The notes under the pieces: model-generated
Told to the model about the DNA's origin: nothing
What the model saw: only the letters and a program-made list of their open reading frames with translations
Database searches by the model: none
Source of the DNA: Bolinopsis microptera
Lineage: Eukaryota > Ctenophora > Tentaculata > Lobata > Bolinopsidae
DNA length: 64,000 nt
NCBI RefSeq assembly: GCF_026151205.1
Contig: NC_087078.1
Span: 14,148,618-14,212,617, forward strand
Reading direction: 5' to 3'
Part shown: piece by piece, positions 8,762 to 42,800 of the stretch
Numbering within the stretch: position 1 is the stretch's first letter
Layout of the letters: each line of letters starts with the position of its first letter
Made by a program: the position numbers and the translations under genes

Positions 8762-11700
8762 ATGTTGCATCGGGCTGGCCACACTGCCCGTTCCCTCCTG
8801 TCAACTGTAACATCTGCTGCACTCTCAACAGACTACCCTACTCTTCATCAACACAGTATCGAGTCCAGGTACTTTTGTCCACCAATTAATTAACTTTATT
8901 ATAATTGTATTGTCATATAAACCTGTCAAGAATCATCTTGTCGTGATGGATTTAACTCCTCTTATGAACCTGCTTGTTAAAAAACCTGTAGAAAAATGCA
9001 CATAAATAAGAAAAAGGGCCAGGTATTGTATATATTATATTCGCCAGAAACATCAACCCATCTCTCTGACAAGTTTATTCCAAACAAGTTCCAGAACATG
9101 TAGCCAAACTATGCGGGTCCCCCGACACAAACTTGACATTTCTAAACACAATTTTGTCGTCAAAGGTACGACTATATAATGGAACAGTTTGGTTGATAAA
9201 ATATTCGACAAATGCACTCCTAATGAAAACAATGTCATGGTCCCTGGCTCTAGTAAATTTTCCGACCTTTCCTCCCCCATTTCAATTATCAAGAGCCGTA
9301 TCAAAAAGCTTTTGCTTGAAACCCAGCAATTGACAACGTGAAATTGAGTGGCTTCCCCTAAATAGCTGGGGCATTGAACCAGCTTAGTTGATCCCATCCC
9401 TTGCATACAATTAATTACAAAAGCGCTAATTATACCTGTTTCAAAAGCATCCTGTCTGGAAGTTCCCTGACTGCCGTGTGAATCTTTGGATCTATTTTTG
9501 GATCTATTTTTATATTTATATGATTTTTATATACCTATATATTCATCGCATAATTTCCATGTCCGCCTGAACAAAGCTGGCACCATCAAATCTTACCTCT
9601 AGAAACCCCAGAACTCATCAAGCCTAGTCTGAACTCAAAACTAGTTGACCAGCTACGTACAGTTTCCTGGACAACTGGAACCTTTTGGGCCATGCACAAG
9701 CCAATAGCATGTATGGTCCTGCAGTGGGGTCTCCTTGTCCTTGGATCTGTGTTTTGATCCGTCTTTTCTTAAAATTTTCCATTTGTGTCACTTAGACTCA
9801 CCTATTAAATGTTAATCGACACCACTGGTCCTAGTTAGATTTAGCCATGGCACAACTACTCAAACGTAACAGTTAAATAGGTGTGACATACTATTATATT
9901 CTTATAATTATATCATATATGAATTGATTGCACTGCTAATAAATAAAATACTTTGTTTTACTAAATACTGTGTTTTACTAACAGTCTTCAACCTGTCATT
10001 TAAATCTAGTGTTTTTAAAGTTTATGATCTGTAGAGTTTGTTCAACATCATTTTAAAAGTGACTCAGTTTATTGGAGTTATGATTTGTTTCTTTTGTGCT
10101 CGGACTGCAGTATAAATTTGGTACATGTTTACTGTTTTTTGGCTTCCTTTAAATGCAAAATGTTTCAGTGATGAGTTTTGGAACCAAATAGCAACAGAAA
10201 GGATACACTGGAGAGAGCCGTACCAGACAATCTCGGACTGCAATTTCAAAGCAGGAAAAGTGAACTGGTTTACAGGCGGTAAACTCAATGTGTCAGGTAA
10301 TATAAAGAATTTTTAAATATTAAAGCAATACAACCATAGTTTATATTATGACAAAAGCTCATATTTATGACTAGGGGATCAGCAACCATCCCCATTCTCC
10401 ACTCAAACTCATGATGAAAAACATTCAGAAAACCTGTTGGACAGACATCTAGTGGAACACAGTGACAAGGCAGCTATACTATGGGAGCGCGACGAGCCAG
10501 GGCAACATGAGATAGTCACATACAAGTAAGTTATAACTTCAATTGGTAACGTACAATTAAGTTATAAATTCAATTGGTAACGTACAAGTAAGTCAGAGTT
10601 ATAAAAGACAGAACTTCTCTTTACCATGTTTCATGTGGGAAACGAAAAGTGAACAGAACAGATAAAACCAGGTATAGAGCGGTTCACATGATACCAATCC
10701 CAGTATCTAATCCCACCCACATTATTAGAATTTGAAACTACGCAATTCCTCAGAGCACTCCATGAGATGACATGCCGTATTGCGAATGTGCTAAATTCTC
10801 ACGGGGTTTCAAAAGGAGATAGAGTGGGTGTTTACCTCCCTATGTGCCCTACTGCTGCTGCTGTCATGTTAGCTTGTGCTAGAATAGGTAATGTTACGAT
10901 GATTTGTTTAGTTACACTGAAACATATTGAAAGGATGTTAGGAGTTATTCAAAGTATTTTTTGAAAGTTTCTTTTCATTCTATCCATTGAATTATCATCT
11001 TTTCAGCAATGTTTGAACAGTGCTTTGCTGCAGCTGTCCTTACTGTCCTATTACAGTCAGCTCCTTTATGTTTTTTATTGAAATTTAACTAAAACTTTTA
11101 ATAGCTTAAAAGTTATTCAAAATATGACCGTCTTTGATTTACTGCAGTTATTTTTTCTTCCCCCATAACTTTGAGTCGTTGGTTACAAGAAACGCTCTGA
11201 CATGGTTAGTCCCTAGCACTTGTGTCAGTTGCTATCCATATGAGCGCGGTAAACGAGCACAATATTTCATTTAAGGAACCATTCTCAAATCTTGGGGGGG
11301 ACTGGGGAGGGGAGCTGACCATGTGCCCATATTTGGGCATAGGCACCAAATTTGAAAGCTTTTGCCCAAAATTCGATCAAATTTCAATATTTTTGAATGA
11401 GACTAACTTTATGTGAAAGATATAGCTCAATATCTGTTGAATAATGGATACTAAGTAAAAAGACCTCCATGAACAAAACTGCACATATAATAATATCTCG
11501 GTTCAGGATACTAGCCAAAATGACTTCATTAAAATCGAAATAACTCCATCAGTTTTCAAATTTTTGCATAAAATTTTCGGAATCGCTTAAGAATTGCATT
11601 TCAAGCTTATTGTGGGCAGCGACATAATTAACAAAAATAATAATAGATTAGTCTAACTTTGATTTGATTTAGTTTCTAGTGATATATATTTAATGTCGCT

Positions 11701-14700
11701 AATTATACTATTGATACAAACATGGCTCTAAAAATGGAGCTATACCAGGAGCTATACATAACGTTGTATTTGCTGGGTTTAGTGCAGAGGCTCTTGGTAA
11801 ACGTCTCGAACAATCTGAAGCTAAAGTAGCATTCACTGCTGACAGGGTTCGTTCTTTCTTGTAATAATATTATAATATTATACTGTACTTACCATTAACG
11901 TATTCCATGGTAATGTCAATGCATTACATTGTATCACCATTCATCATGATACGATGTCACTCATGTACCATTACCCAGGCTATACGAGGTGGTAAACTGA
12001 TTCCTCTGAAGAGTATTATGGACGAGGCAGTGAAGATGGCCCCCTCTGTCCAGAAAGTATTTGTTATGGACAGAACTGGAGCTGTAGAGCTCACTTCAAG
12101 CAAGGATGTGTCTCTTGAGAGTGTAATTAGTTTTACTTATTTACTTTTCATTACTTTTACTTATTCTCAGAGAAAAGTTTCTTTATGCTGATAAACTTTT
12201 TTTTAAACTAATAAAGCCAACAATTTATAATGAACAATTTATCATCAGCTATGATTATCACTTTATTCGCAGCTGGAATTCATTATATTTATTCCAGGAA
12301 ATGGCTGGTGCCTCGTCAGAGTGTGCTCCAGTAGTATTAGACTCTGAAGACCCTCTGTTCATGTTATACACCTCTGGAAGCACTGGAGCTCCCAAAGGTA
12401 CAACACTCATCACTAACTCAAATTATTTACTAACAACCTCATTGTCACAGTATCCCCGAGCATGAGAATGAACACGAGAGCGTGCTGACTTAAAGATTAT
12501 GCTTTCCTTTTGCTTTGGAGACAGATCTGATAGCGATGATAGTGTCCAATACAATGATACAGCGACACCTCTAATCACAGTACCTCTTAATTATAGTGCC
12601 TCTTTTTTTAGAGAGTCTTTTTACCATACCCCGCCTAACGCCATCTACCAAGTGTAGAATGTAGGTAACAACTTGTAAGTAATACATCCTAATAAAAGGT
12701 ACTGGTCAGGTTTAGTTCACACTCAGGCGGGCTATCTAACGTACGCTGGTTACACCCACCAGCAAATATTTGACTACAAGCCAGATGACGTGTACGCCTG
12801 TGTAGCGGATGTGGGGTGGATTACCGGTCACTCGTACGTGGTGTACGGTCCTCTCAGTAACACTGCTACCACTGTTATGTTCGAGAGTACGCCTAATTAC
12901 CCCGACCCTGGTTTGTATTCTCTTTTCTAACATAATTCGCTTTTAAGTTGAGCGATTTGGTGGCGAAAATGATTAGAATTGATCGATGCAAAAAGTTGGG
13001 GTGCACTGACCTTGTAACAATGGTTCAGGTCGTTACTGGGAGACGGTTGAAAGGCTGAAAATAAACCAGTTTTACGGAGCCCCCACAGCTGTGAGACTAC
13101 TCATGAAGAGCAGTGATAGTTATGTGACCAAATACGACAGGTAATCTCTTAGTTATGATGTAGATAATTATGTGAATAATTACTATATAATTTTAATTCT
13201 AATTGTGTTTTGATACTTTAGTTTGGAATAGTTGAAAAGAAGTATTGTTGTTAAATATAATGTATCGGTGTTTAGTTTTGACTATCCAGCCGTTATGCTG
13301 ACTGCTGTGTGAGAAAAATGTGATTAAGGGGGCCGGGGGGTCTGCATCAAAATTCTATCGAAATTGATTTTATAGTTGTTCCTGATAGAGGGGAGTGATA
13401 TCTATCAGCTGCTCTTAGGTCCCATGGACAAATATTGTTCCTAGCCGAAATTATCGCCGGTCGTTTTTTTATGATTTTTTGAAGTCCAAATTTTCAAAAT
13501 CGAATAAAGCCTTTCCCAAAATTCTGTCTGGCTCATCTCTTTTAAATGATCTCTAGAACATACGATTAAAATACGATTAAAAATCGCTCACACGAAACAA
13601 TTACACATAAGCGCTGACCTTTGACCGGCGATAATATTGGCTACCTTACGAGACATATTTAAATGGGACGAAAGTCGGTAGTTTTTCGAAAAAAACACCA
13701 TATTTTCGGACTATAAATAAATATGATTCATCAAACAATTAATGAACACTATTATTCGATCATGAATTGCCTTAAAAATTATAAGTTAAGTTGAGGCTAA
13801 TTTTCAAAGGCTACGGAGAAATTGTTTACAAGATGAAAGTTGAAACAGCCGCTCAGAGAAGATCTTTGTATTTTATTTTCTCAAATATTGGGTTTCATTT
13901 TTGTAAAATAAGGTGATGAATAAAATCCCCAAATATCAAGATTTAATTTAGGGTACGAAATGAGGCGGTTTTCGAAAAAAATTCCCATATTTTCGTTCCC
14001 AATTTATCATTTAGGTCACCGGAACTATGTCTAACATAAATATGTCTCGTAAGGTAGGAACAATATTTTTCCACATGGGACCAAAAGCCGCTGCGCTGAT
14101 AGATATCACTCCCATCTATCAGAAACATCTTAAGAGGCCCCCCCCCCCCGGCCCTCTTAAGATCGGAATGTTGTGTAATTTAATAGCATTGTATACATTA
14201 TTACATTACACAACGTTATATAATATCTATTTATAAATTATATATATTTTATTATCAGGTCATCGCTGAGAACGCTAGGAACAGTTGGTGAGCCTATAAA
14301 TCCTAAAGCTTGGCAGTGGTATTTTGACGTTGTGGGAGAGGGGCGATGTCCCGTAGTGGATACTTGGTGGCAAACTGAAACAGGTCGAATATTTGTTAGG
14401 TTAAATAGATACTTGATCTTTTCAGATTGATCCTTTCAAACCTGGCCTAGACCCCAATAACCTCACTAACTTGAACTAACTGTCAGGAGGTATAATGATA
14501 GCTCCCAGACCTGGCCTAGACCCCAATAACCTCACTAACTTGAACTAACTGTCAGGTGGTATAATGATAGCTCCCAGACCTGGCCTAGACCCCAATAACC
14601 TCACTAACTTGAACTAACTGTCAGGTGGTATAATGATAGCTCCCAGACCTGGCCTAGACCCCAATAACCTCACTAACTTGAACTAACTGTCAGGTGGTAT

Positions 14701-17700
14701 AATGATAGCTCCCAGACCTGGCCTAGACCCCAATAACCTCACTAACTTGAACTAACTGTCAGGTGGTATAATGATAGCTCCCAGACCTGGCCTAGACCCC
14801 AATAACCTCACTAACTTGAACTAACTGTCAGGTGGTATAATGATAGCTCCCAGACCTGGCCTAGACCCCAATAACCTCACTAACTTGAACTAACTAGAAC
14901 TGTCAGGTGGTATAATGATAGCTCCCAGACCTGGCCTAGACCCCAATAACCTCACTAACTTGAACTAACTGTCAGGTGGTATAATGATAGCTCCCAGACC
15001 TGGCCTAGACCCCAATAACCTCACTAACTTGAACTAACTGTCAGGTGGTATAATGATAGCTCCCAGACCTGGCCTAGACCCCAATAACCTCACTAACTTG
15101 AACTAACTGTCAGGTGGTATAATGATAGCTCCCCGACCTGGCCTAGACCCCAATAACCTTACTAACTTGAACTAACTGTCAGGTGGTATAATGATAGCTC
15201 CCAGACCTAGACCCCAATAACCTCACTAACTTGAACTAACTGTCAGGTGGTATAATAATAGCTCCCAGACCTGGCCTAGACCCCAATAACCTCACTAACT
15301 TGAACTAACTGTCAGGTGGTATAATGATAGCTCCCAGACCTGGCCTAGACCCCAATAACCTCACTAACTTGAACTAACTGTCAGGTGGTATAATGATAGC
15401 TCCCAGACCTGGCCTAGACCCCAATAACCTCACTAACTTGAACTAACTGTCAGGTGGTATAATGATAGCTCCCAGACCTGGCCTAGACCCCAATAACCTC
15501 ACTAACTTGAACTAACTGTCAGGTGGTATAATGATAGCTCCCAGACCTGGCCTAGACCCCAATAACCTCACTAACTTGAACTAACTGTCAGGTGGTATAA
15601 TGATAGCTCCCAGACCTGGCCTAGACCCCAATAACCTCACTAACTTGAAGCCTGGAGCCGCTATGAGACCTTTTTACGGAGTGGATATTGCTCTCATGAG
15701 CCCTGACACCAAGGTTAGACGGGCTGCAGAAAAGCTCCTCTTCAAAAATCTTCCAAAATTTTCCGTTTATCAAAAGCTTTCTTTGGGTATGGAACTTTGA
15801 TTACCTCAATCGTGTCTTGTGCCATCGTCAGTGACCTTTCTAGATAGTCATTCAAGAAAAAGAGTATATCAAAAAAAATTCCGCAGACAAGAATTGAAGG
15901 GAACGATGTGGCAGGGCACCTGTGCATAGCACAGCCGACACCAGGGCTTGCGCGCACTGTGTACGGAGACCACGAGCGCTACATTAAAACTTACTTCGCT
16001 GACTACCCAGGCTACTACTTCTCAGGTAAATTATCTTTAAAATTACACAATACATAGTAATTGCGGCCTAAATAAACACCTTCACACCATTTGCAAATCA
16101 AACACCAGTGCTTGTCCTATGTGCGGGGACGGAGAGGAAACTGTCTCACACTTCCTTGGACAGTGTCCGGCTATTGCCCAAATTAGAGGTCAATATTTCC
16201 AGGACTACTACCTCTCTGTCAATGACATATTCGACAACCAACACATCACCACAATTGTCAATTTCACAAACCGCACCAAACGCTTAATTGTGCCGGAAGA
16301 GCTGGATCAGACCGGGGTGACTTAAAGTATTATCTCATATGCTGTCTCGTCTCGTTTTACTTTTCCAAACCCAGCTGGCATTTAAGCGTATCATTTTGAC
16401 TCATATAACATCCTACACCACCCTCCACCAATCACTCTGATCTCACCGGCAACCTTCCCCAAGGTTGCCACACCCCAGAGGTAGGCAGAGCATCTCAATG
16501 CTATCCTCTCGTGGGCTATCATGGCCCAGCCTCTCTAAAAAAAAAAAAAAAAAAAATACATAGTAATATCGATATAATGGTAACCAGTTCAACAGACGGT
16601 GGTTGTCCACATGAACGTTAATTCGTGCTCCAATACCGCCATCCCTCAGGTGACGGCGGGTACAGGGACGAGGATGGTCACATCTGGTTGACGGGCAGGG
16701 TAGATGACGTAATGAACGTGAGTGGACACAGGCTAGGCACAGCTGAGGTGGAAGGAGTTCTTGTGGATCACGTGGCAGTGGCAGAGAGTGCTGTGGTGCC
16801 GAGACCACATGAGATTAAGGGAGAGGGTTTGTTTTTTAATCACGGATCTTTTGTTGAGTGTGCACTTCAAAGTGCACAATTTTTGACTATAGGGACTTTG
16901 AAATGGTTCTAAAGGAGAAAATATCTGAATTACCAAATACACACACTTGATAGCACGAGTAACATCTTCAGTCTGCATTTGAATTCTCTTATAACATTAA
17001 GTTTGGTTCCTACTTTTGCCTCGAATTTAAAACTTTCTCACGTTCTAAATTTCGTGAAAACTCCTTCAAATTCAATCAAATAAGCCGTATAAAGAACTCT
17101 TATCTTCATAAATATTTGTTGCCAGAGAGTAAACTTAAGATGAACCAGATTGATAAGTAGTAATTCTTTCGCTGGGACGCTTTCTTTGGAAATATTCAGT
17201 CAAATTATTAAATTCCTGTCCATGACATTTCGTTTTCAATCTTTGAAAATTGTCTTATCTTTCGTTCATCCTGACATCTCGTTTAGGAAAGTAAGGAATA
17301 AAGAAATATCAGTTCTATTAAAATAATTATCAATTTTATACTTTCATCTTCGATTCGGTGACTTTTTTAAGGAGATAATAAGGGGAATGGCTGCACCACA
17401 CAGTATTAATGAGTTGTAAATTTCAGGGATATTTGCATATGTCATTCTGAAAGAAAGTGTGGACATTGATCACGACGTTCTGAAGAAGGAAATGTCTGAT
17501 ATGATTTCAACGAGGATCGGAAAATTTGCTAAACCTGAAGCAATTGTGGTAGGCAGCAAAATTATCTTAGTTGTATCAATTGCTTACATAATGAAGCGTA
17601 TATTTGACATGCTAACACTTCTTTTATCTTTCAAAACATACTTCCAGATCTGTCCTAATCTACCGAAAACAAGAAGTGGGAAGATAATGAGAAGGATTCT

Positions 17701-24874: not shown

Positions 24875-27800
24875 ATGTCAGTATTATTGGAGACAACGCT
24901 TGGTGACATTGTGATAGACCTTTACACTAAAGACAGGCCCAGATCAACTATGAACTTTCTGAAGCTGTGCAAACTGAAGATGTACAACTACTGTATGATC
25001 CACTGTGTTCAACGCAACTTTGTTATCCAAACAGGTAGTTATATACAGGTTACTATGGTTACAGGTACAATATATGCTATATACAGGCGTGTGACTATGG
25101 TTACGAACAGGTGTGATAGTTGGAACTTAATATACTGTAATATTGTGTGACTATGGTTACAAACAGGTGTGATAGTTGGAACTTAATATACTGTAATATT
25201 GTGTGACTATGGTTACAAACAGGTGTGATAGTTGGAACTTAATATACTGTAATATTGTGTGTCGTTACAAACAGGTGTGATAGTTGGAACTTAATATACT
25301 GTAATATTGTGTGACTATGGTTACAAACAGGTGTGATAGTTGGAACTTAATATACTGTAATATTGTGTGACTATGGTTACAAACAGGTGTGATAGTTGGA
25401 ACTTAAAATACTGTAATATTGTGTGACTATGGTTACAAACAGGTGTGATAGTTGGAACTTAATATACTGTAATATTGTGTGACTATGGTTACAAACAGGT
25501 GTGATAGTTGGAACTTAATATACTGTAATATTGTGTGACTATGGTTACAAACAGGTAGTTGGAACTTAATATACTGTAATATTGTGTGACTATGGTTACA
25601 GTTTATAGATGCAATGACCTGATGGTAGCATCAAGGTGATAATACGCCACACTGTTACTGTGATGATTACGTAATATGTGAACGACCCCTTAATCTGGTA
25701 ATACAGATGACATTATTTTACTTTGGTTTCAGGTGATATTGACCAAAAAGGCGGCAGCTCAATCTTCAAAGTCCTGTATGGCGAGCAAGCTAAATTCTTT
25801 GAGAAGGAAAATGTTCCCAAAATAAAACACACCCAAAAGTTGACGGTTTCTATGGTTAACGATGGTAAGACCTCTACGTTTTTCATGTCTACTTAATCGG
25901 CGTTCAACTTGGCATTTTCATTATGAACTAAAAGGTGGAGGAGAAACTTTATTTGGTCAATTTTAGGAAAAATTGCAGTTTGTCAAGTCCTTTCTCGCCG
26001 TTATCTCTATCCGGGCCTATATTTTGTGTCAATTCCTATTTCCTTTCTCATTCTGTTCTCAGTTCTACACACAAAATATTTATCAAGCTTTAAATTTTGA
26101 GAATTGTTCTTATATGATTTATTTAACAAATAAAACGCACTTTTTATCGAAATCAACGAAATAAAAACATAACTAATATTACTATTTGGTATTAACACTA
26201 CTAGCATCTTTCTTTAACTTTACCTTAATATCATCCGTACGACTAATTGTTTTGTTTGCAATTGTTACAATTATTACGTTTACAGTTGAAATGAGCACAG
26301 CTTACACAGTATAGCTATATTGTTGAAAAATACAGTTGAAAAGTTGCCCTGAATCGTCAGTTTGTGACTATATCATTGTTTATCAAAACTTACTAACTTT
26401 ATTCAGTTGTACTTTTTGCGATTAACTCACCGCATGGAAATTTTGGAGCTAAGTCGGTGGAATGGACCATCCTCCAGAGGCTCAGCTTCTGGGACCATCC
26501 TCCAGAGGCTCAGCCTCTGGGACCATCCTCCAGAGGCTCAGCTTCTGGGACCATCCTCCAGAGGCTCAGCTTCTGGGACCATCCTCCAGAGGCTCAGCTT
26601 CTGGGACCATCCTCCAGAGGCTCAGCTTCTGGGACCATCCTCCAGAGGTTCAGCTTCTGGGACCATCCTCCAGAGGCTCAGCTTCTGGGACCATCCTCCA
26701 GAGGCTCAGCTTCTGGGACCATCCTCCAGAGGCTCAGCTTCTGGGACCATCCTCCAGAGGCTCAGCTTCTGGGATCCCTTTCATTGCGAGGGGACTTGTC
26801 ATATTATAATGTGAACGATTTCATAGTAAAGTACATTTTATTTCTATTATTAATTTAATAATGCGACGTAAGATGTGGAGTAATGTTGGGTAATGTGTTG
26901 TAATAGTAACCACTATAGTGCACTATTTCAGGTAATGGTTACCATGGTTCCCAGTTCCTGATAACTACAACTGAGGACGCAGATGCTCTGGATAGTCAAC
27001 ACACTGTCTTTGGTATCGTTAGTGAAGGTAAGTCACTTTTTTTTTTCTTTTTTTTTTTCTTTTTTTTTTTTAATGAGGAACCTGCCAAACCCCAGGACAC
27101 CAGGAGGATACCACCGGCAAAGCGGCTAATAGTACCCTCCGGTCTGTGTTGTACCGAAGAAGCTGAGTTAATCGATCATGACTCGGCTTACCAGCCAAGA
27201 GGTAAGTCACTTTGGTACACCAAGTTTCCTTAATTTATCGGTCACCTCCCCTTAAATATTCATTGTGCTGGCAAGCTTCTCAGTTTGATTTAAACTCAGT
27301 TTTCTATTATCTGTCCAATGAAAAAAGGTTGTTTTTTAATGTTGCATGAGAGATGCGGTATGCTAATTGTTTCTACAACGAACGGGCAACGTGCTTGCCT
27401 TCGCAAAGTTATATGTAGTTTAATAATCGTATTTTATACAGTGGATAATTTGCACGATGTTGGGTCTTTTGTTCAATAAGGGCTATCTAATTCTCTATTA
27501 TCAGATGATAAAACAATTTTATCAACAATAACGATAAACGTTAACCGTAGTCTGGGATTCTCCGAATAGTTTACCTTTCTCCTACATAATTGTATAAATA
27601 TTTAGTGGTGAGACTACGAGGCTGGCAAGTTCGCTATTTCACTCTTTAAGTGTTGAGGAATAATTTGAACTCGGTACGTAGCAGCTTCCTTCCACTGGGT
27701 GAAGAGAAGAATACAAGCTTTACATGGGGAAATAGCTTATGATGGAGCTGCAGTGTATACGCAGTGTATACGCACTACGCAGTGTATACGCAATGTATAC

Positions 27801-30800
27801 GCAGTGTATACGCAGTGTATACGCAGTGTATACGCAGTGTACGTGTTTAAAGCTTTTACGGTTATTCTGAATCTCACTGGGTGTTGGTTATGATAGCTGG
27901 AATTGTACCAATAAAAGTGTCTTTTATTCTCATTTTCAATTCACACATACATATCTTTACCATCGAGATATTAAAGTTGACTCTGCTTAAAGCTCTTAAA
28001 ATGACCTAAAAGAACCTACACGCGGAGTAGTTTCCCTATCTGTTACTCTATTAGGATGGAGCTGCAGTGTATATACTATACGCTTCACTCTATTCAACAA
28101 TCAGTATCCTCCTTATCCGCTACTCTGGGGATTCTGTCTTTGGAGAAGAAACCAAAAGCAACTCCCGAGTATTCGGGCACCACACCAATGTCACTGTTAA
28201 GCCCATTCTCAATTGTAGAGTACCTGGAATTACCATTAGCGGATCTCAGTCTCATGAAGTTATTGAAACGGTTGATGATGAGGGGAAAGGGTAGGGAGAT
28301 AACCAGGATCCCAGTCAGAGCACACAAACTACCCACCACCTTGCCCATGGCCGTCTTTGGGGCGTAGTCACCGTACCCCACAGTGGACATTGTGATGATA
28401 CTCCACCAGAACCCAGTGATGATGCTGTCAAACTGGTTGCTAGGCGTAGGAGGCGGCTCACAGCCCTGCACATCTGAGATAGTAATAGTCTTGTTACCCA
28501 GAACAATAGTGAGAGGAACCGCCAGCTGTGAGCCGCACTCTGATAACATGTTTGTAAGGTTGATTACAGGGTTACATGTTGAATTTAGCTGAATAAGAAA
28601 GTCGAATGTGTTATTGACATGCACTGTCATAACCTCGTCAGGCTGCTCTGTGAAGAATATTAGACTGCTGAACAGAACTACAAAAGTTATCAACATGAGA
28701 GCTAGTATGACAAGTTCCCCCGCGCTGGAACTGAGAGCGTAACCCAGGGCAAACAGTCCCTGAAAGTAACGAGACATCTTAAATATGCGCACTATTCGCA
28801 AAGTTCGGAAGAAGCGGAGTACCATGAGGAAACTGAGGTTCTTCTGTTGTCTAAAGATCAGATCTAGGTAGAAAGGCAGTATCGCGAGTAGATCGAACCT
28901 GAGAATACAAGTCGTACCTTAATGATCGTAATATTTTAGATCACAAAATGTAGTTATTTCAATGTTATTAACTAAAAAGAGGGTTTTCTGACAATCAACA
29001 TCCTGATCAAAATAGTTGAACAGCATTAATAACAAAGTGTTAACAAAGTGTTAACCAATAATTGAACAGCATTAATAACAAAGTGTTAACCAACCAGTTT
29101 AGAACAGACTTAGCGAACCGTCTTTTGTCAGGACAACAGACAAATCGTATTGTAAAGTTCAGTGTGAACCAGATGTTGCTGACCGCTTCTATTGCCAGAA
29201 GAGCTACACAGGACGTGGGACCGCTGTAGTAATAACTGTCAACATATTAGAACATGCTCTACTGAGATCACATTAGAACATATAATTACCCTATTCTATC
29301 TAACTAACCTTTTTTGTCTTTACACTCCCCAGGCCCTCATTTACCACCAGCCCCTCATTTACCTCCAGCCCCTCACTAACCTTTAACCCCTCACTAACCT
29401 TCAGCCCCCTCCCCCAGCCCCTCACTAACCTTCAGCCCCTTCCCCCAGCCCCTCACTAACCTTCAGCCCCTCACTAACCTTCAACCCCTAACTAACCTTC
29501 AGCCCCCTCCCCAGCCCCTCACTAACCTTCAACCCCTCACTAACCTTCAGCCCCCTCCTTCAGCCCCTTACTAACCTTCAACCCCTAACTAACCTTCAGC
29601 CCCCTCCCCAGCCCCTCACTAACCTTCAACCCCTCACTAACCTTCAGCCCCCTCCTTCAGCCCCTTACTAACCTTCAACCCCTCACTAACCTTCAGCCCC
29701 CTCCTTCAGCCCCTTACTAACCTTCAACCCCTAACTAACCTTCAGCCCCCTCCTTCAGCCCCTTACTAACCTTCAACCCCTCACTAACCTTCAGCCCCCT
29801 CCTTCAGCCCCTTACTAACCTTCAACCCCTAACTAACCTTCAGCCCCCTCCTTCAGCCCCTTACTAACCTTCAACCCCTCACTAACCTTCAGCCCCCTCC
29901 CCAGCCCCTCACTAACCTTCAACCCCTAACTAACCTTCAGCCCCCTCCTTCAGCCCCTTACTAACCTTCAACCCCTCACTAACCTTCAGCCCCCTCCTTC
30001 AGCCCCTTACTAACCTTCAACCCCTAACTAACCTTCAGCCCCCTCCTTCAGCCCCTTACTAACCTTCAACCACTCACTAACCTTCAGCCCCTCCCCCAGC
30101 CCCTCACTAACCTTCAGCTCCTCCCCCAGCCCCTCACTAATCTTCAGCCCCTTCCCCAGCCCCTCACTAACTTTCAACCCCTCACTAACCTTCAGCCCCC
30201 TCCTTCAGCCCCTTACTAACCTTCAACCACTCACTAACCTTCAGCCCCTCCCCCAGCCCCTCACTAACCTTCAGCTCCTCCCCCAGCCCCTCACTAATCT
30301 TCAGCCCCTTCCCCAGCCCCTCACTAACTTTCAACCCCTCACTAACCTTTAACCCCTTCCCCCAGCCCCTCACTAACCTTCAGCCCGTTCCCCAGCCCCT
30401 CACTAACCTTCAACCCCCTCCACAGCCCCAACTAACCTTCAACCCCATCCTAAGCCCCAACTAACCTTCAACCCCCTTCCCCAGCCCCCACTAACCTTCA
30501 GCCCCCTCCCCCAGCCCCCCACTAACCTTCAGCCCCCTCCCCCAGCCCCTAACTAACCTTTAGCCCCCTCCCCAGCCCTTCACTAGCCTTCAGCCCCCAG
30601 CCCCACTAACCTTCAGCCCCCTCCCCAGCCCTTTACTAACCTTCAGCCCCAAGCCCCCACTAACCTTCAGCCCCCTCCCCAGCCCTTTACTAACCTTCAG
30701 CCCCAGCCCCCACTAACCTTCAGCCCCCAGCCCCCACTAACCTTCAGCCCCCACTAACCTTCAGCCCCCACTAACCTTCAGCCCCCTCCCCAGCCCTTCA

Positions 30801-33800
30801 CTAACCTTCAGCCCCCAGCCCCCACTAACCTTCAGCCCCCACTAACCTTCAGCCCCCTCCCCAGCCCTTCACTAACCTTAAGCCCCCAGCCCCCACTAAC
30901 CTTCAGCCCCCTCCCCCAGCCCCCACTTACCTTCAGCCCCCTCCCCAGCCCCTCTAACCTTCAGCCTCCTCCCTCAGCCCCTCACTTACTTCCAACTCTG
31001 ATCGGGCGGACATTCCGCCCTGATTTGTGGCAGGGATTCCAAGCATTGTGCTACAACTGCTATTAGTATTATCACCAGATCCAAGTAGGCTATCACTTTT
31101 GCAAGTCGTCCAGAATCTGGATTATCCAGGCACTGAAAACGGACATTTTGTGTGAGTAAATTTCGTTTCATTTTGCTGTAACTACTGACTTATTGTAGAG
31201 ATCACTGGTTTTACATTTTTAAGGGAATTGTGAAATAATGTACGGATCTCCTTATGATATGTTGTCAAACCTTTTCTTGACCTTCAGCTTAATTTGAACG
31301 GTTTGAAACTAATATTGAGTTGGTACGATATTCCATACAGAATTTTACCTTACTCATTATACTCAAGTCATATCATAATTACTAAAAATGTAGTTGAGAC
31401 TTCACAAAACGTTGACAATATTATTTGAAAGACTCACCATCCATAACTTCTTCTGTAAAGGATGGCAGAAACGCATGCCTTGGTTAATGAGCCACTGACT
31501 GCTGGCTTGCTGGATAGCAAAGCGGGAGATAACATGAGGTCCCATCTTAAAGAATCGCAGCTCCTCCACGAAGATGTCTGGGTTGATGTGAGAGGGAAGA
31601 CACATTACCCCGTTTGAAAGGTAGTAACCTAGGATGGGCTGGAAGACTGCCCTGTTCCGATCGAAAAAATATTCCCCCCTTTCCGCCTCATAGTAAGATT
31701 CTATCTCGTCAGAACCTGAGTTATACCTTATTAGAACTGAGTGTAGATCAAGTAGATCATCTTGAAGAAAGTAAATAAGTCTACACAACAATGCACTAAA
31801 ATATATAGGGTTTCATCAATATATAGATTCAATATAGATCAATAGATTATAACTAACCTAACAAAGTTTCGGGGTATCTTCTCAAAGTGCTTCTCCGTGT
31901 TTGAAAGCACAGTCCCCCCACGTTAAGCGTCACAATATCTCTGTTTTTAGAGGAAGAAACAGCTCTATCTCTGGTCTGATGATTGTTCACTGTCAGGGAG
32001 GGCCGACTCGTCTGGGAGGGCCGCCTCGTCATCTGCATATCGTCAGCTTTTTTGGCTTTAAAGATATCTTTCTGAGAGTGAGCCCGCCTGGTTGGCGGTC
32101 TAAAGTTCTGTTGCAACGGCATTTCGTTTTAAGTTTTATCCATTATAATTCAAACGTTTCAACCACGTTTTAGGCAAGTAAATAAGTTTCAATGCTGCTG
32201 GCACAAAATTTAATACAAATACAAGTACTATACAGAGAATAGACGGCGTGAATAAATGTATTGTATCACGAACAAAGCATCTTATATTAGATTCTCCCAT
32301 ACTCGGGTGAGAAATAGTCACCTACTACTCTTCGGTCACGTGTACAATCACATTAACGCTGTATTAATAAGTGGTCTCCACATTACAGCACACTATTCTT
32401 ATAACCATGTTGTAGGAACTGTGCGCATAAGTCTCGCGATCTTCCGCTTAATGACATTAATCTTTTCTGCGAAATCAACTCTAAATTGAATACATGTGGT
32501 GGACTTCATTGGCACTAAAACTGACTCGCTTTGTCACTCAGATTTTTAACATGATGACCGTACGATTTTAATGGCATTTGGCTTATCGACTGAGTTCTGG
32601 AGATCTTAAAAGCTATTTTGTACGTAGCATCCGACTGATACGAATTAACACCGAATGAAACATCAAATGCACCTCTATTTAAATACTTAACAAATCAAGC
32701 ATTTTACCACACTAAAGTCGGACTTTTAAAAACGCTCGACAGATGGTGGTACTTGCAAACTGATATGATCTATTTATCTAACGCTAGTACTGACGAAAAC
32801 TTGTTATTGCAAGCTTATAGAATAAAATCCTAAGAAAATGTAAGGAATATTATTCCTAAATTTTTCTATGGGTTTATTCCGGCAAATTGAGTTGAGATCG
32901 AAAAAGCTAACATACATTCACTTAAACTGCGAAGAAAATGTCGAAGTAAATTATTTATCTTGTCGTAAATAAAAGGAAACTTGGTTAACCATTTCAATAA
33001 ATGAAATAATCATCGATTATGTAAACATAATTTATATAATGGATGACACCACACGAACATTTATAAATAATCACTGAACAATTTTAAAAGACGTAAAAAA
33101 GAGCCCTAGCTCCGAAGAGGTATTTCCTTGCATCCAAACTCGATGGACTGCATGTTAACTTTGTGAACTTCCGCAAGTCAACAGACCCCTCCCCCACGTT
33201 CGTTTTTTATAAACCCACTCCCCATTTCGTGGGGCCAACTAAACCAGCTCATTTCATGACTGTTAAGCAGAACGAAATAAATGCAATCCAACTGTTTGTA
33301 ATACTAAACGTTGGGCTATAAGGATTAAGGAGCCTGTGTGTAAGTGGGGCAGGGGTTGTCAGGCTGCGTGTAAGTGGGGCAGGGGTTGTCAGGCTGTGTG
33401 TAAGTGGGGCAGGGGTTGTCAGGCTGCGTGTAAGTGGGGCAGGGGTTGTCAGGCTGCGTGTAAGTGGGGCAGGGGTTGTCAGGCTGCGTGTAAGTGGGGC
33501 AGGTGTTGTCAGGCTGCGTGTAAGTGGGGCAGGGGTTGTCAGGCTGCGTGTAAGTGGGGCAGGGGTTGTCAGGCTGCGTGTAAGTGGGGCAGGGGTTGTC
33601 AGGCTGCGTGTAAGTGGGGCCGGAGATTATCAGGCTGCGAGTAAGTGGGGCAGGGGCTATCACCCTGCGTATTAAAGAGACAGGGACTGTGATTTAAATG
33701 GAGCAGAAAGCAGGGCTAATTTGTATAGAGACCCATAGCTTGCAATACCAGGATTGCTCAGTTGTGGTTATGGTATAATTGTTAGTGCCCTCACTCATCA

Positions 33801-36800
33801 CTGCAATCAGCTCACACCACCAACCGTGATGTAACAGAGGGATAATAGTAATATTAGTTAGCAGCCGCCTTGTCAGTCAAAATACAGTACATTTATTGAT
33901 ATTTCTACCACTATCGGTGCGGGTTTTACAATTAGCGTGATTATAGATAAATCTACTAATTCCTTTCATCATTCATCTGATCTATTATAATCCTGACTCT
34001 CCCCTTCTCTAGAATCTATATTGTAGGAAATGTTCGAGTAGAAGTTGACATTTTTCTACTTTAAAGTAGGAGTTGACATTTTTCTACTTTAAAGTATTCA
34101 ACTTAATTTAGACCTTTTGGAAGTTGTCCGAATACATAGTTTAGGCCATCACAAATAGACGATTCGTGAAGATCGGCTTTTTACAAAGCACAAACTAAAA
34201 TTTAATCGCGATTATTTAGAAAGATGAGCAACTTAAGAACAAACAACGGTCAATTTTTGGAACCTTTAAACGATACTCCAACATACTGCAGAATCCCTAT
34301 AAAAAATTACACAGTAAATAATAAATATGCAGTGCCTTAAACGAGTGATTACTAACCACCGGAGTATTGAAAAGCTTGATTTTACTATTCTTGTGGGCTA
34401 CTCTAAAGAAGTTGTGAACTAGGTTAACAGCAAATACCTTGAGCACAACAAATATGCCAAGTCATTTAAACAAAAGCCAAGTTTCAATCCTTCCTCATTA
34501 TTGTTATAATTGTCTTAGATAAGTTCTTACTTTTACAAAAGGTAAAATCTTGCAGACGTCTAGACTCTAATTTTCTACTTAGATTACTCAGCTGGATTAC
34601 ACGGTTACAAATTAAAAGAAGTTTCAAAGTAAGTGACTAAGCCTACGGAGTTAAAATTTAAGACATTCTCTTTGAGTAAAATTGAATTCTGAGTAGTATA
34701 ATGTAAGGAATGTTCTGAGTAATATGATATAAGTCAAAGTGAAGGAGATATGTGGTACTATCCATTTTGTATAGTGAAATAATTTCTTAAGAAACTAAGC
34801 AACATATATATTGTATATAAACAAGTTTCGTTATGACTCTTTCCTGTTAAAAACAATTCAATTATACATAGCTATATCACACCTAACTAAATTTCAGCTG
34901 ACAAAAACAAGACACAACAATATAACATCACATAATATAATAGTGCACTTAGTAATACCACTTAGTCTCATATTCTATGCTGTTAAAATCCCCTTCATGT
35001 CATTGGCGTGCAGCGCCTCCGTTGCACGTAATACGAGTAACTTGAAGCAGCTCTTAGCTGCTAAAGCGTGCTATGCACTTGAAATAAAACCTGCACGTGT
35101 TAATATAGTTCATTCGTTAGGACTGTTACACTGACAACTCTTTTAGGCTTCTAAGTACTTAGCACGAAAACGTACCAAAACTTTAGCATTATTGAAAATA
35201 AACAGTCAAAAATGCGGTGTTAACTAGAGGAATATTATACAATTACACATAATATGTATAAAATATTATATACAACATGTACCTAATCACATGCTCACGC
35301 TTGCATTAAAAAAGCCCTGTCAACAATACTTGAGATCAATTCAATCGCTCTAGCCAATCAGAGAGCTATATCCACCAGCGTGCGCTTTTTCGCATAGCGG
35401 GCTCTCACCAGCCCGCTGTAAAAGGGCCCGATATCTTTGCAGCCCGCTCATGATATAGCCCGTTAACAAGTGACATTTAATTTGACCAGTAGCAATATAG
35501 CCCGGAGTTCTCTAAAATATTTTCAGTTTCTGTATCGTCTCCTTGTGAAATTCCTTATTACACTGACTATATACATACAACTGTATATACATTTTATTTT
35601 TGTGTCCGGTAGGGTCATGCAGCTCGTGAGCAGATGACATGATACTTTGATTTATATCAAAGTTATTATAACACACTACATAATACACATCAGCACTATA
35701 ATCGGTCACCCTATATTATTGATATTCATCGTCACTGACATTACATTCATTATTCCCACGGCCCAGGAATGCAGTGCATCTCCAGCCCCTATATACGACA
35801 CACCCCTTTATGATTGGCTTACATTGAACAACTACAAGTGACGTGTTACCATGGTTACAACAATTAGTGGTGACCTTTTCTAGAGTTGACTTTTATACAA
35901 GCTCCATTGTTTATTTATAAAATTATATATTAACTGTAATACGCCCGCTGGTGGATATAATCCACATCACCTCGACCTGCGGGCGGAAAAATCGTATAGC
36001 ACTCGGGCCCGATGGGCCCTCCGTGCTATACGAAAATATGTCCTCCTCGGGCTAGCGCCCTCGGGGACATATGAAATATTGCACGCGCGTGCGCGTGCAA
36101 TATTTTGTTCCGCCCGCGAGTCTCCGGTGATATGTATATATATCCCTGACACGCGGCACAAATTAACCAATCAAAGAGCTATATCCCTATCTCGTGGCAC
36201 AATTTACTCAATCAGAGAGCTCAGAGCTATATCCTTGTCATTTTACACAAATTAACTTAAACCCTGAAATCCTCGTCACGTGACACAAACTAACCAGAAT
36301 TAAGTCCGAAGCACACGGTCAAAACTGCATCATTTTATACATCTGCGATACAAGTGATGCTGTATTCCTGCCAGGGACAAATTTACAAGATACAGCCCAT
36401 TAGTGATACGTGTACATGCCTAAACATGATTCACAATATGTCTGCGGTTGGTGGTATTTTACACACCCAATTATTAATGCACAATGAGTGGATAAGTTAC
36501 AGAAATTTTGTAAACTTCGGTTTATCAATTGTATTGTTCAGCTAATTGTTTGTATAAACGCGCTGCCGATTATCATACGTTAAAGGGGAAAGAAGTGTCA
36601 TGGATATTGGATATTAGGAACATCATGGACAAGAAAGCTACTGTTCATTTGTCGTTCTTTAATTTTTGGTGATTGGGCACCCTCTTTAATTTAATGACTC
36701 TCCTGGTTTGGGCTGCCGATTTCCAATTACTGTTAACCGGTAGTTGTAATATTTAAAACTAATGATGTTTCACGCATAGAAACTAATTCGAGTATGTATT

Positions 36801-39800
36801 CAAATGTACGTGATCACTCGTTCAAAGGACTGGAAAATTTGCCGGCACAAACAAAACAAAAAGATTGATCATAATTTTAAGCGATAACGTTATTAATCAA
36901 TGTTGATTAGACAATTGTGTGCACCGTACATGATAGAAACTCCATGAGGCTGGGTGACTTTCCAGCAAAACAACAGTTTTGCTTCAAATGTGTATATAAT
37001 AAGTAATAACTGACTAGCTTAATGAACCAGGTCTAATATCCGATCTCTATTCAATACCCATTACCTTGATTATGCCATACGGACGCCAATTGTAACTGGA
37101 TTACCCCTCTCCTTCTCCCCCTCCCCCCCCCCCCCCTGGTTAATGATCGTGACTGAAATATTGGGGAAGTAAAATTGGCGACTAGTAAGTTAGATAGGTA
37201 TCAGACGAATGTTAACCGGGCCCCAAACATTCACTCCACCGCTCCGAGTCTGATCATTAAAGGAGATAACGTTACTATTTAACCTATTATAAGTTGTTTG
37301 ATAATGATGTGTTTGTTGCAGGGGAAGATGTGGTGTCTCAGATTAATGAGGCGTATTGTGACGAGAAAGGGAGACCTTATCAGGACATCAGGATCCATCA
37401 CACTGTAATCCTACATGATCCTTTCTCAGACCCAGAGGTTATTATTTCTCACTTTAACTTCTTTCTATTATACTTTAACTTCTTTCTATTTAACTTCTTT
37501 CTATTATATTCTAATTTTAATTAATTGACTACTTATTATTTGGCTTCTTATTCATGTTCTGTTACTTATTTTACCCTTATATTCTCATTTTACCAGCCAT
37601 TGTGCTATCATCTGATCATGTCAATATCCCACACGACTGTTATCATGCTATTTATCAAACACCACCGCAGTTACGTATCATTCTCGCACAGATAGATGTG
37701 ACATCGTGCAAGATATTGTAGCTGCTTTTTGTAATTGTTCACACTTTATTATAAAGCTTCTCTTTCAGATGCTTCCTGTCCCACCTCGCTCTCCCTCTCC
37801 TCCACCCTATGTCATACAATCGGACAGGTCTGTTATTTCACTTTTCAATAAGAGAATAAGAAGGTATTTTTATTCGGCTGTTTCATAACGTTACTAACAC
37901 TAGTTACTATCTAGCTCTGATGTAAAAGTCGGCACATTGTGTTAGACAGCCCGCAGCCACTAACCATGGTAAGTTTAACCAAGTTATTTTGTTGTTGCTC
38001 GTTCTCGAAATAATGAGATTCTTCCCTTGATGCTAATGTAGTCTCCTTGTGCAGCTAAACTAACACCCCCCCCTCCTCCGCAGCTAAACTAACACCCCCC
38101 CTAGCCCATTCCCCCTCCTTCCCCCTCCTCCGCAGCTAAACTAACACCCCCCCTCCCCCACTGCTAAACTAACACCCCCTCCTTCCCCCTCCCCCGCTAC
38201 TAAACTAACACCCCCTCCTTCCCCCTCCCCCGCTACTAAACTAACACCCCCTCCTCCTCCCCTCCCCCGCTACTAAACTAACACCCCCTCCTCCTCCCCT
38301 CCCCCGCTGCTAAACTAACACCCCCTCCTCCTCCCCTCCCCCGCTACTAAACTAACACCCCCTCCTCCTCCCCTCCCCCGCTGCTAAACTAACACCCCCT
38401 CCTCCTCCCCTCCCCCGCTGCTAAACTAACACCCCCTCCTCCTCCCTCCCCTCCTTCCCCTCCCCCGCTACTAAACTAACACCCCCTCCTCCTCCCCTCC
38501 CCCGCTACTAAACTAACACCCCCTCCTCCTCCCCTCCCCCGCTGCTAAACTAACACCCCCTCCTCCTCCCCTCCCCCGCTGCTAAACTAACACCCCCTCC
38601 TCCTCCCCTCCCCCTCCTTCCCCCTCCTCCGCAGCTAAACTAACACCCCCTCCTCCTCCCCTCCCCCGCTGCTAAACTAACACCCCCTCCTCCTCCCCTC
38701 CCCCGCTGCTAAACTAACATCTCTTTATTTTCAGAGAGAAGTAGTGTGTCTCCACGTGGGTCAGACAGGGGTCCGTATAGGTAGTGCCTTATGGCAGCTC
38801 CTCTCTCAACAACACTCCTTACACCCTGACGGTAGCTTATCCTCACGTGACCAGTTTTACCCTACCTCTATGTTCAGTGAGAGTAGCAGTGGTGAACTGA
38901 CCCCCCGATGTGTGTTCACTGACCTGGAAACTACCATAGTAGAGGACGTCAGGAGGGGACCCTGGGGTGGGCTGTACCAGTCAGACTGTTTTGTAACTGA
39001 TAAAGAAGACGGAGCCAGTAACTACGCTAGGGGGAACTTGTCAGTAGGAAGGGGCCGTGTGGGGGAGTGTTTAGATCGGATCAGGAAGGAGGTGGAAGGG
39101 TGCGAGTCTCTGCAGGGACTAGTGATATCTCACTCTGTGGGAGGAGGAACTGGGGCTGGCTTCACTGCTCTCCTCAACCAACACCTCCGAGACCTCTACA
39201 AACACAAAACAAAGTTACAGTTCACAGTCTTCCCCTCCCCTCACATCTCACCTATAGTTGTAGAACCCTACAACACAACACTTTACATGAGCCATGCTCT
39301 GGATGCCTCTGACTCAGAACAGTTAACAGTCCTGCTGGATAACGAATCTTTGTACAAGGTGGCTCAGAGAGAAGGAGTGGAGTTGCCCGACTACTACGAT
39401 ATAAACCAGCTCATTGGTAGGATAGTAGCCTCTGTTACAGCTCCAATCAGACTACAGGGCCCTCAGACAGTGGACCTTACCACTATCCAGACTAACTTAG
39501 TACCTTACCCCAGGATCAGTTATGTGACTGCTAGTTTGTCCCCTAACTGTGAGGGCAACACTCACCAACTTACCTCTGTATCCGATATGACTGTATCATG
39601 TTTTGGCGAGGAAACTTCAACTCTTGATTTAGACAGGGTACATGGTAAAGTACTTTCTAGCTGTCTGCTGTACCAGGGGTCTGTAACTCCGGGGGAGATT
39701 AACACGGCCATTCGTCAGCTGTCCGCTCTGCGAAGTTTGAAAACCACCAGCTGGGTACCCTGCCCTTTTAAAGTAGGGATAGTAAATCAGTCCACCAAAT

Positions 39801-42800
39801 CTGACCCTGTCCTTCCGTCCGTGTGTGCTTTAACCAACCACACCGGCCTTGAAACCACTATTGAGAGCATAACCGGGAAGTTCGAGAGACTGTACCGGCG
39901 GCGCGCATTCTGCCACTTCTACCATGGTGAGGGGCTAGGGCAGGACGAGTTCCAGGACGGGTTAGAGCAGATGTCAGCGTGGGAGAAGGACTACATGTAC
40001 GAGAACCATCCCTACCAAGGACCCTGGTACCGCTACAGGGGGGAGGGCGATGAGGACTCAGACAGCGATGAGAGTGAGGAGTATGGGGAGGGAGGTGGCA
40101 ATGTGGAGACGTTAGTGAGAATTAGAGGGAGGGGGGAGTGAGGGTGATATTTAAAAATATGATATTTTGATATGTTAATTTAATTTATGTTTTAAAGATT
40201 TGAAATTTGTATATACGTATAGTTGTATTTAAGTTATTATTGTTCAGAAACATTATGTCAATAAATTATGATAGCATTGTATTTTATATTATTGTAATTA
40301 GATCCGTTATTTTCATCCTTTTAGCTTTCAACAGCTGTATATATCATCCGATTTAGTGTATTTAATAAGATAATTGTCTTTTAGAATATTATAATTGCTG
40401 TGTTAGAGTTTTTGTGTGTTTGCCATTGCTTTCAGTAATCACTTATCAGTCAATTAATATAAAGAATTTTTAGCAGATGTTAAATTTTTCAGTTCTCGTA
40501 ATCAACGCTTTTTTTAAATTCATCGATGGCATAAATAACGAGGACATTTTGTCATTGATCCTAGAAATACCCGAGAGTAAATATGACGATTATTAACGCA
40601 CCCATCTGTTGCATAGCTTAAATATTTATTTTACAATATGAATTTGCAGGTTGGCGGTGGGAGAGACGGTCAACAAGTTAGCTGGACATAATACAGAAGA
40701 TGTGGTGGAGTACATCGAGGAGAAAGAACTCAAAGCTAACACTCAAATGTTAGAAATAATCGGTAAGTAAGGAACTCAAAACTAACACTCAAATGTTAGA
40801 AATAATCGGTAAGTAAGGAACTCAAAACTAACACTCAAATGTTAGAAATAATCGGTAAGTATGGAACTCAAAACTAACACTCAAATGTTAGAAATAATCG
40901 GTAAGTAAGGAACTCAAAACTAACACTCAAATGTTAGAAATAATCGGTAAGTAAGGAACTCAAAACTAACACTCAAATGTTAGAAATAATCGGTAAGTAA
41001 GGAACTCAAAACTAACACTCAAATGTTAGAAATAATCGGTAAGTAAGGAACTCAAAACTAACACTCAAATGTTAGAAATAATCGGTAAGTAAGGAACTCA
41101 AAACTAACACTCAAATGTTAGAAAAAATCGGTAAGTATGGAACTCAAAACTAACACTCAAATGTTAGAAATAATCGGTAAGTAAGGAAATCAAAGCTAAC
41201 ACTCAAGCGTTAGAAATAATCGGTAAGTAAAGAACTCAAAGCTAACACTCATATGTTAGAAATAATCGGTAAGGATTCAGCTAATTAAGGAATTCAAATG
41301 ATAGAAACTATCGGTTAGTATTAAGTAAGGAGCTGGAAGTTAACACTCAAATGCTAGAAACAACCGGTAAGTAAGGAACTCAAAGCTAACACATGAATGA
41401 TAGAAAAAGCCGGTGACTCGGTGACAAAGAATCACGAAGCCAACAGTCTAATGTTAGAAAAAATCGCATACGGAGTATAGTACGTGCTAGTACTACGGAA
41501 AAAGCTCAAACCTTATAAAATTGTCGGGAAGTTAAATGTGACTGCTTTATTTAATCGAGTTAAAGTAGGGTCTATCCTATATTAATGCAGTTAATTAGGA
41601 TATATCCAACTCTCCTTTAAGTGTATTACCTAGTGTCTGCCGGGGACTATGATCTATGGATAAAGTGATTGATCTGAGTTAAAGTTAGGATAAAGTTAGG
41701 ATAAACCGAATTGTTTTCAGGGGATATTGCTGATGCTGATATGAAGCCCCCGGAGAATGTACTCTTTGTGTGTAAACTGAACCCTGTTACTTCTTCAGAT
41801 GATCTGGAGATAATCTTTTCTCGTTTTGGGACTATCGAGTAAGGATAATTGTTACTTAAAACTCAATAAGTTAGGCTCATGGTAGTTCGCGGCGCGCACG
41901 AGCGATAGCCCTTATCGATCGGTACACGGTAAACCGAGGGAGAAAGATATGAATTAGGATAATTTGTAGGTTTTTTTAAATAAGATTTTATCTGATAAAT
42001 AAGATTTTAGCACTTCAATCCGGATTCCTGTTACCGAAACACGCGGGCCTGAGATCCTAAATTCACCATATCTTCAAATTCAAACAATCAAACAGTCATA
42101 AAATCGTAAAGAATATAAAAATTGTAAGTAAGTAACGGTTTTTCACCTTGTCTGCTTCTTGACACGTGACTTTACAGGTCATGTGAGGTTATCAGAGACT
42201 GGAAGACCGGGGACTCCCTCTGTTACGCCTTCATCGAGTTCGCTGACGTTACGGACTGCGAGGCTGCCTACTTCAAAATGGACAATGTTTTGATCGACGA
42301 GCGCAGAATACATGTGGACTTCTCTCAGAGCGTTTCTAAACTTTATTTCAACAGGAATTCTAAAAACCAAATGAAATACTCTGCTCAGAATAACGATGAT
42401 AAATCACGTGATAAAAGACGGCCTCAGAATGACAATTTAAGGTCAAAACAGAACGATGAACTAATGAGGCCAAAACGGAATAACGACCATATTAAGTCTA
42501 ACCAGAATGTTGATCCTATGAAGTCTAGGGGGGAAGATAAAAACAATAAATCAACGCGGAACGATGACCATGTAAGGTCAAGGCGAGACGATGGCCAAAT
42601 AAGGTCAAGGCGGGAAGATGGCAAAGACAATTTAAAGTCAAGGCGGGACAATGATCATTTGAGGTCAAGGCGGGAAGATGACCGTGTAACGTCAAGGCGG
42701 GATGACGACCATAAATCTAGGCGGCACAACGACCTTATCAAGTCTAGGCGGGATGATGATTATATAAATTCTAGTCGGGAAGAAGACCATAAACGGTCAA

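Follow-up and report, generated by a model that had tools for sequence, protein, structure and literature searches.

Tandem repeats at splice sites have been described in several organisms. Minisatellites at human exon-intron boundaries are reported to alter introns and to yield novel introns (PMC2812944). Fission yeast is reported to have introns composed of tandem repeats (PMC3629103), and an intron of the potato RNA-dependent RNA polymerase gene is reported to have formed by duplication of the parental intron/exon structure (PMC4974935). Among human introns that lie in tandem repeats, dual-specific splicing is reported to be enriched 8.4-fold (PMC10809524). Here we consider a 64,000-nucleotide stretch of the ctenophore Bolinopsis microptera (C7:14148618-14212617, in an assembly of 264.65 Mb in 232 contigs), which we call the window. 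Minisatellites lie on or beside splice sites in four of its genes: ACSS1, PPIL4, a Kv channel and an alpha-tubulin-like gene. An earlier note on this DNA drew attention to them and knew of no described system that matches. Given the published human boundary minisatellites, the fission yeast and potato introns and the human tandem-repeat genes, that is too strong. Among open-licence papers, we found no report of such arrays genome-wide in a ctenophore. Zhuo et al. in 2007 reportedly described modern human introns arising from tandem arrays, a likeness we draw from the title. We describe the anatomy of the B. microptera arrays, their recurrence and their excess at donor words. Border-spanning minisatellites are real and genome-wide in this species, and they are a variant of known events.

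The comparison is instructive on both sides. The human boundary minisatellites resemble ours in having ~30-bp units at the boundary, with effects on intron structure. As that report presents them they lie in recently duplicated genes and the repeats are kept or spliced, whereas in B. microptera the genes are ordinary and introns are lengthened genome-wide (PMC2812944). The potato and fission yeast cases share the tandem duplication of exonic sequence with splice signals, the copies becoming intron. As reported, they create a new intron, but the B. microptera unit spans an existing border (PMC4974935, PMC3629103). The tandem units of human UBC are likewise bounded by AG|GT. Those units are described as coding and variably spliced, whereas the B. 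microptera copies are intronic and give in-frame stops in the two cases we read (PMC10809524).

The assembly is reported to derive from PacBio reads assembled with wtdbg2 at coverage >70x (PMC10232365). This assembler may give arrays the wrong length. We called arrays with Tandem Repeats Finder (TRF) on the window and on sampled stretches. Spliced models were made for the four genes. The first three were aligned to solved-structure sequences, and support for the tubulin model comes from a protein search. Six arrays on or near borders are these:

10521..10593, plus strand: ACSS1 exon-3 donor array, 2.4 x 31 bp, donor at 10525|10526 (TRF, protein continuity)
14440..15649, plus strand: ACSS1 acceptor array, 17.5 x 69 bp, acceptor at 15591|15592 (TRF, unit profile, protein alignment)
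25089..25600, plus strand: PPIL4 intron-1 array, 9.3 x 56 bp, starting 54 bp past the exon-1 donor (TRF)
29330..30986, minus strand: Kv intron array after the exon-3 donor, 1.66 kb and degenerate, donor at 30991|30990, 4 bp away (TRF)
38051..38719, plus strand: alpha-tubulin-like intron-1 array, 37-bp unit, ending 15 bp upstream of the acceptor at 38734|38735 (TRF)
40726..41406, plus strand: PPIL4 exon-6 donor array, 14.7 x 46 bp, donor at 40762|40763 (TRF, alignment to solved-structure PPIL4)

TRF and the unit profiles show head-to-tail units of ~10-100 bp that are locally homogenised, which makes these arrays minisatellites. The earlier note named seven bordering arrays. TRF and the gene models confirm five of them; PPIL4 exon 1 and Kv exon 4 are weaker, the latter repeat being 2.4 copies of 11 bp that lie 39 bp from the donor. 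Coding exon and splice site share a unit in ACSS1 and PPIL4, and the same is seen at exon ends of RPC1, dynein and ADAM genes elsewhere in the genome.

That units copy exon sequence together with the splice signal, as the earlier note held, is clearest at two borders. The ACSS1 acceptor unit consists of 58 bp of exon start plus CTAACTGTCAG (11 bp), and the junction AACTGTCAG|GTGGTATAATG is exact in 15 copies. The final copy is the real exon start, and no other copy runs on into the exon. The intron (14384-15591, 1208 bp) is all array but 56 bp. The PPIL4 exon-6 unit consists of 37 bp of coding exon end plus GTAAGTAAG (9 bp). Codon-by-codon reading gives a premature stop if the wrong copy is used: an earlier ACSS1 acceptor reads into TAA, and a later PPIL4 donor meets TAA immediately. 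In the spliced models of both genes the reading frame is continuous only via the exon-proximal copy. From this protein continuity, the exon-proximal copy is presumably the one that is spliced.

The alignments agree with these models. Acetyl-CoA synthetases align with the middle part of ACSS1 through the junction that bears the array; 5 extra residues follow in ACSS1 ~10 residues downstream of it. The 5' part of ACSS1 aligns to solved-structure sequences across the exon-3 junction, where the unit TACAA|GTAAGT... holds 5 bp of exon end and 26 bp of intron start. PPIL4 aligns to residues 1-321 of PPIL4 7qtt chain V. The exon-6 junction is ungapped, and there is a 2-residue gap three residues past the exon-1 junction. 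The array past exon 1 has units carrying AAACAGGT, with a donor-like AAACAG|GTGTGA; the final copy reads AAACAG|GTAGTT, the same as the true donor. It must be noted that five residues in the ACSS1 exon start at 15592-15649 (the LDPNN region) have no counterpart in the two aligned acetyl-CoA synthetases. They are perhaps coding sequence that was acquired along with the repeat.

The Kv and tubulin arrays carry splice signals of other kinds. The Kv array has a donor-like core AAG|GTTAGT (AAGGTTAGTG) with 65 matches when as many as 3 of the 10 bases may differ; 56 of these start with an exact AAGGTTAGT, and the spacings are mainly 18 and 30-31 bp. We make no claim that the core is more conserved than the rest of the unit, because the units were chosen by that core. 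The Kv protein aligns to Kv channels with an 8-residue gap near the exon-3/4 junction. The tubulin array occupies most of intron 1, and its 37-bp unit combines a branch-point-like CTAAACTAAC with a C/T (pyrimidine) tract. By eye GCAG is retained in 4 copies, the remaining copies having GCTG or GCTA. The predicted protein matches alpha tubulins in the search. A relative's tubulin (P0001) is 93% identical and is uninformative on the array.

Anatomy alone does not say how often such arrays meet borders. Where we could test it the excess of arrays at borders is modest, and it is clearest for strong donor words. A permutation of the window's 13 intron arrays (period at least 15, score at least 50) against 52 borders puts 6 of the 13 within 20 bp of a border versus 2.19 when shuffled (2.7-fold, p=0.009), and 7 versus 3.11 within 60 bp (p=0.015). 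Across five array cut-offs the test at 20 bp gives p values of 0.0005 to 0.051. These p values flatter the pattern, because the window was chosen by a reader who had seen it. That reader also took arrays off the borders to be few, but TRF adds five intron arrays (at 9485, 9946, 17300, 34037 and 36139) that are 87 to 2177 bp from borders. Near-border arrays had been overlooked as well: 27037 (9 bp away, poly-T rich), 37451 (13 bp) and 41680 (15 bp).

A further sample was taken as 20 evenly spaced 10-kb stretches of C7 (200 kb). They hold 41 arrays at period at least 15, copies at least 2.4 and score at least 80, and 57 at period at least 10, copies at least 2.0 and score at least 80; the latter is 285 arrays per Mb and 7.5% of bases. 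A coding-like open reading frame (ORF) lies within 120 bp of 31 sampled arrays, and most of these ORFs have no identification. The distances in this shuffle test run to coding segments predicted by codon usage and not to proven splice sites. Of 39 or 55 arrays, depending on settings, 4-9 lie within 20 bp of a predicted segment versus 1.2-4.7 when shuffled, an excess of 1.9-3.3x (six settings, p 0.019-0.043). Of 18 tests at 40, 60 and 100 bp, only 2 reach p<0.05.

Another line of reasoning covers more of the genome. We looked for the same 8-letter word paired 25-55 bp apart, using two donor words, AGGTAAGT and AGGTGAGT, and two near-identical controls, AGCTAAGT and AGGTCAGT. Over the genome AGGTAAGT forms 2196 pairs from 10,758 words (reversed word 41 from 7,965) and AGGTGAGT forms 1669 from 8,474 (reversed 236 from 7,650). 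The controls give 357 pairs from 7,084 words for AGCTAAGT (reversed 10 from 5,835) and 961 from 8,325 for AGGTCAGT (reversed 178 from 8,429). Pair totals are dominated by large arrays, so we counted clusters instead. For each word the counting covers the first 100 pairs listed and thus part of the genome, and the number of array-free sites in each stretch was scaled down from genome totals. On this basis AGGTAAGT has 13 clusters in 17.7 Mb (22.7 per 1000 estimated array-free sites) and AGGTGAGT has 8 in 15.8 Mb (19.7 per 1000). AGCTAAGT has 7 in 55.5 Mb (5.0 per 1000) and AGGTCAGT has 11 in 49.5 Mb (8.0 per 1000), or 12 when two places separated by 6 kb are split, as was done for the corresponding AGGTAAGT pair.

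With near duplicates merged, the donor words have 20 clusters at ~981 sites versus 18 at ~2787 for the controls, an odds ratio of 3.2 (p=0.0004). With near duplicates split the counts are 21 and 19 (odds ratio 3.2, p=0.0003). A strict set, which on the donor side only drops one doubly counted array, three low-complexity clusters and one segmental duplicate, still gives 16 versus 18 clusters (odds ratio 2.6, p=0.006). If the pairs had been listed strand by strand the odds ratio would fall to 2.5 (p=0.004; strict 2.0, p=0.03). This is ruled out, since a reverse-complement pattern search returns the same 100 places with strands swapped; the listing runs by place on both strands. The acceptor word TTTCAGGT, paired at 20-50 bp, behaves differently. 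Its 477 pairs from 15,918 words versus 44 from 8,674 for the reversed word look like an excess, but this is gone when loci are counted: the first 100 listed pairs form 30 clusters over 83.4 Mb, or 6.2 per 1000 sites.

To see what these clusters are we read the sequence there, fetched for 13 of 13 AGGTAAGT clusters (their 5' flanks), 7 of 8 AGGTGAGT clusters (the eighth is the L038 array), 20 of 30 acceptor clusters, 6 of 7 AGCTAAGT clusters and none of the AGGTCAGT clusters. Five of the 13 AGGTAAGT clusters have their first donor at the close of an open exon whose end is repeated in the unit. The exons are:

dynein heavy chain, E 5e-13
RNA polymerase III RPC1, E 6e-12
ADAM, reprolysin E 1.6e-17
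sushi-like, E 0.0027, below the Pfam cut-off
ORF at L038, no family match

In the 5' flanks of the remaining 8 no exon was recognised. Units of the 13 clusters are mutually unrelated save for one duplicated pair. By eye, 2 of the 7 fetched AGGTGAGT clusters lie at the end of coding exons (sushi-like L096, DPH2-like L100), and L099 is possibly a third. We read an exon starting at the last copy in 7 of the 20 acceptor clusters, and several others have open frames that were not counted. Four of these seven exons have a family or structure match: a ubiquitin-conjugating enzyme, a glutathione reductase, an ephrin-receptor-like repeat and a cytidine deaminase. The 6 fetched AGCTAAGT clusters include 2 splice-border arrays (a UMPS donor and a PRKCSH acceptor), 1 coding repeat, 1 pair within an exon beside a small acceptor triplication, and 2 that show nothing. 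The control rate is thus itself raised by border arrays. The labels MFAP1 (used below), DPH2, SLC35 and some of the sushi ones are putative, assigned mostly by eye.

It is worth considering whether dense arrays simply fall on borders by chance, in which case border hits would be expected and the reader merely noticed a rich window. The density in the sampled stretches is in line with this, as are the strict overlap with borders in the window (p=0.21) and the acceptor word, whose rate per locus lies between the two controls. The excess within 20 bp in both the window and the stretches is not, nor is the ~3.2-fold excess of donor words over near-identical words, and pure coincidence therefore seems fairly unlikely to us. 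Alternatively, transcription or splicing at strong donors might provoke junction duplication, for example by replication-transcription conflict or R-loops. Besides the donor-word excess, this idea can call on a hand count in the window, where all 3 donors copied by arrays are GTAAGT versus 2 of the 20 other modelled donors (Fisher p=0.006). However, the word excess lacks a tie to verified coding exons, and clusters of a control word are also found at splice borders. We hold such a donor-linked process to be unlikely. The version in which strong 5' splice sites would be hot spots of tandem junction duplication, ACSS1-type AG|GT arrays would be removed unit by unit and splicing would drive rapid intron growth is harder still to believe.

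One can also imagine that the arrays are useful, so that repeated donors or branch points/acceptors would raise splicing efficiency or serve as recursive or dual-specific sites. The ACSS1 69-bp unit starts with GTGGTA and ends with CTAACTGTCAG, and each could therefore be excised as a small intron. In sequence the units are compatible with the dual-specific pattern, with CAG|GTGGTA in 15 copies. The TTTCAGGT pairs mark units that start with GT and end with AG, and AG|GT sites in tandem repeats have a reported precedent (PMC10809524). Against this, most tubulin copies lack AG, as decoys would, PPIL4 and ACSS1 would run into an in-frame stop if the wrong copy were used, and the per-word acceptor excess vanishes by locus. 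A useful role is highly doubtful. Mobile elements, introner-like or otherwise, that had inserted at splice sites would also be intronic and carry splice signals, but the units are local, mostly unrelated to each other and copies of the adjoining exon. We reject this origin for the arrays examined, since neither the Kv array nor the 13 AGGTAAGT clusters have a dispersed shared unit (all 10 genome occurrences of a 22-bp Kv unit word are within the Kv array), and for arrays in general it is barely credible.

We argue that these are probably ordinary minisatellites that were born across splice borders and tolerated in the intron, with a further cause behind the donor excess. A short tandem duplication would occasionally span a splice junction, slippage or unequal exchange would then multiply and homogenise the copies, and the intron would merely grow. 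The array would be tolerated because the copies are intronic and the exon-proximal copy retains the coding sequence and the true splice site. Minisatellite birth of this kind predicts an intact exon-proximal copy, copies on the intron side and unrelated units between genes, and all three are seen. The earlier note's view that this genome tolerates border minisatellites that lengthen introns holds: copies lie intron-side, and the ACSS1 intron is nearly all array. Its further suggestion, that arrays could give new splice choices, would meet premature stops at PPIL4 exon 6 and the ACSS1 acceptor.

Several points weigh against minisatellite birth with tolerance as the whole account. The proximity excess does not extend to strict overlap, where the window has 3 arrays on a border versus 1.65 expected (p=0.21). 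The assignment of the spliced copy has its basis throughout in protein continuity and sequence from one assembly. Neutral tolerance cannot exceed the array load of neutral DNA, so the donor excess requires an extra cause. This ~3x excess may come from a surplus of arrays where DNA is transcribed, from biased mutation at donors, or from selection in which only strong exon-proximal donors survive. Twenty AGGTAAGT sites free of arrays were taken from C1 (a contig of 26,206,493 bp; plus strand, 0.1-1.5 Mb), and by eye ~7-9 of them look like coding donors. Upstream codon scores are no different between 20 donor words with arrays and 20 without (Mann-Whitney p=0.15). The view that few AGGTAAGT words are real donors, which took the reversed word as background, was therefore wrong, and enrichment of array-borne donor words at coding exons is unsupported against these 20 sites. 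Since the codon scores are alike, the excess attaches to the donor-like word without demonstrated specificity for real coding exons. Part of it could reflect a general richness of arrays within genes. As for a process that starts arrays at borders, suggested in the earlier note, the donor words speak for it and the acceptor word and the array-free sites do not. At the very least, the kind of event is already known, and its frequency here and the ~3x strong-donor excess are the unexplained part.

Each row of near-identical donors or acceptors beside a single true site offers a natural experiment in spliceosome choice between equivalent sites. In a genome rich in such arrays one could follow the lengthening of introns through tandem growth, and learn whether mutation is locally elevated by strong donors. 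For annotation, a pipeline in which tandem repeats are masked could cut off the ends of exons that adjoin these arrays.

Other arrays and neighbouring sequence complete the description. PPIL4 spans window 24875-43577 (~18.7 kb), and its introns house the Kv channel (minus strand) and the alpha-tubulin-like gene (plus strand). Its last exon, at 42517-43079, contains a degenerate 27-bp coding repeat that gives an Arg/Asp-rich tail. Three more arrays lie in its introns:

26464..26774, plus strand: intron-2 array, 11 x 28 bp, off-border, 157 bp upstream of the next acceptor (TRF)
33334..33670, plus strand: intron-3 array, 11 x 30 bp, inside a long intron (TRF)
37451..37505, plus strand: short 21/15-bp repeat, 13 bp past the donor at 37437, one of those missing from the earlier list (TRF)

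The 30-bp unit of intron 3 contains GTGTAAGTGGGG, and no exon was recognised alongside. The sampled stretches of C7 supply further border cases:

L030:3984, donor array of an MFAP1-like gene, copying 27 bp of exon end (flank reading)
L030:7654, acceptor array of the same gene (flank reading)
L011:1-743, actin-related exon with a 31-bp acceptor array upstream (Pfam Actin E 5e-51 for the ORFs)
L017:2056, glycosyl hydrolase 47 exon with a short array before the acceptor (E 1.8e-7)
L016:3027, ion-channel exon whose acceptor lies 34 bp past the end of a 61-copy array (E 7e-16)

The MFAP1-like segment has no Pfam match and was labelled by eye. A 2.3-kb array of a 12-bp unit at L013:4597-6889 is open in five reading frames, a reason for caution when genes are called here from ORFs.

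The window also contains what appear by eye to be mobile elements. An uninterrupted 1427-codon ORF at 2354-6637 resembles a long terminal repeat (LTR) retrotransposon polyprotein, and a 761-codon ORF at 59406-61691 resembles a protein-primed DNA polymerase of Maverick/Polinton type. Two facing arrays of an 11-bp unit at 53224-54296 are near mirror images (CCGGCTACTAG / GGCTAGTAGCC), and ORFs in their flanks resemble the reverse transcriptase and endonuclease of an element like a long interspersed nuclear element (LINE). A short telomere-like run of TAGGGTTGGGGTTAGGGT-like units at 57173-57245 adjoins the LINE-like ORFs.

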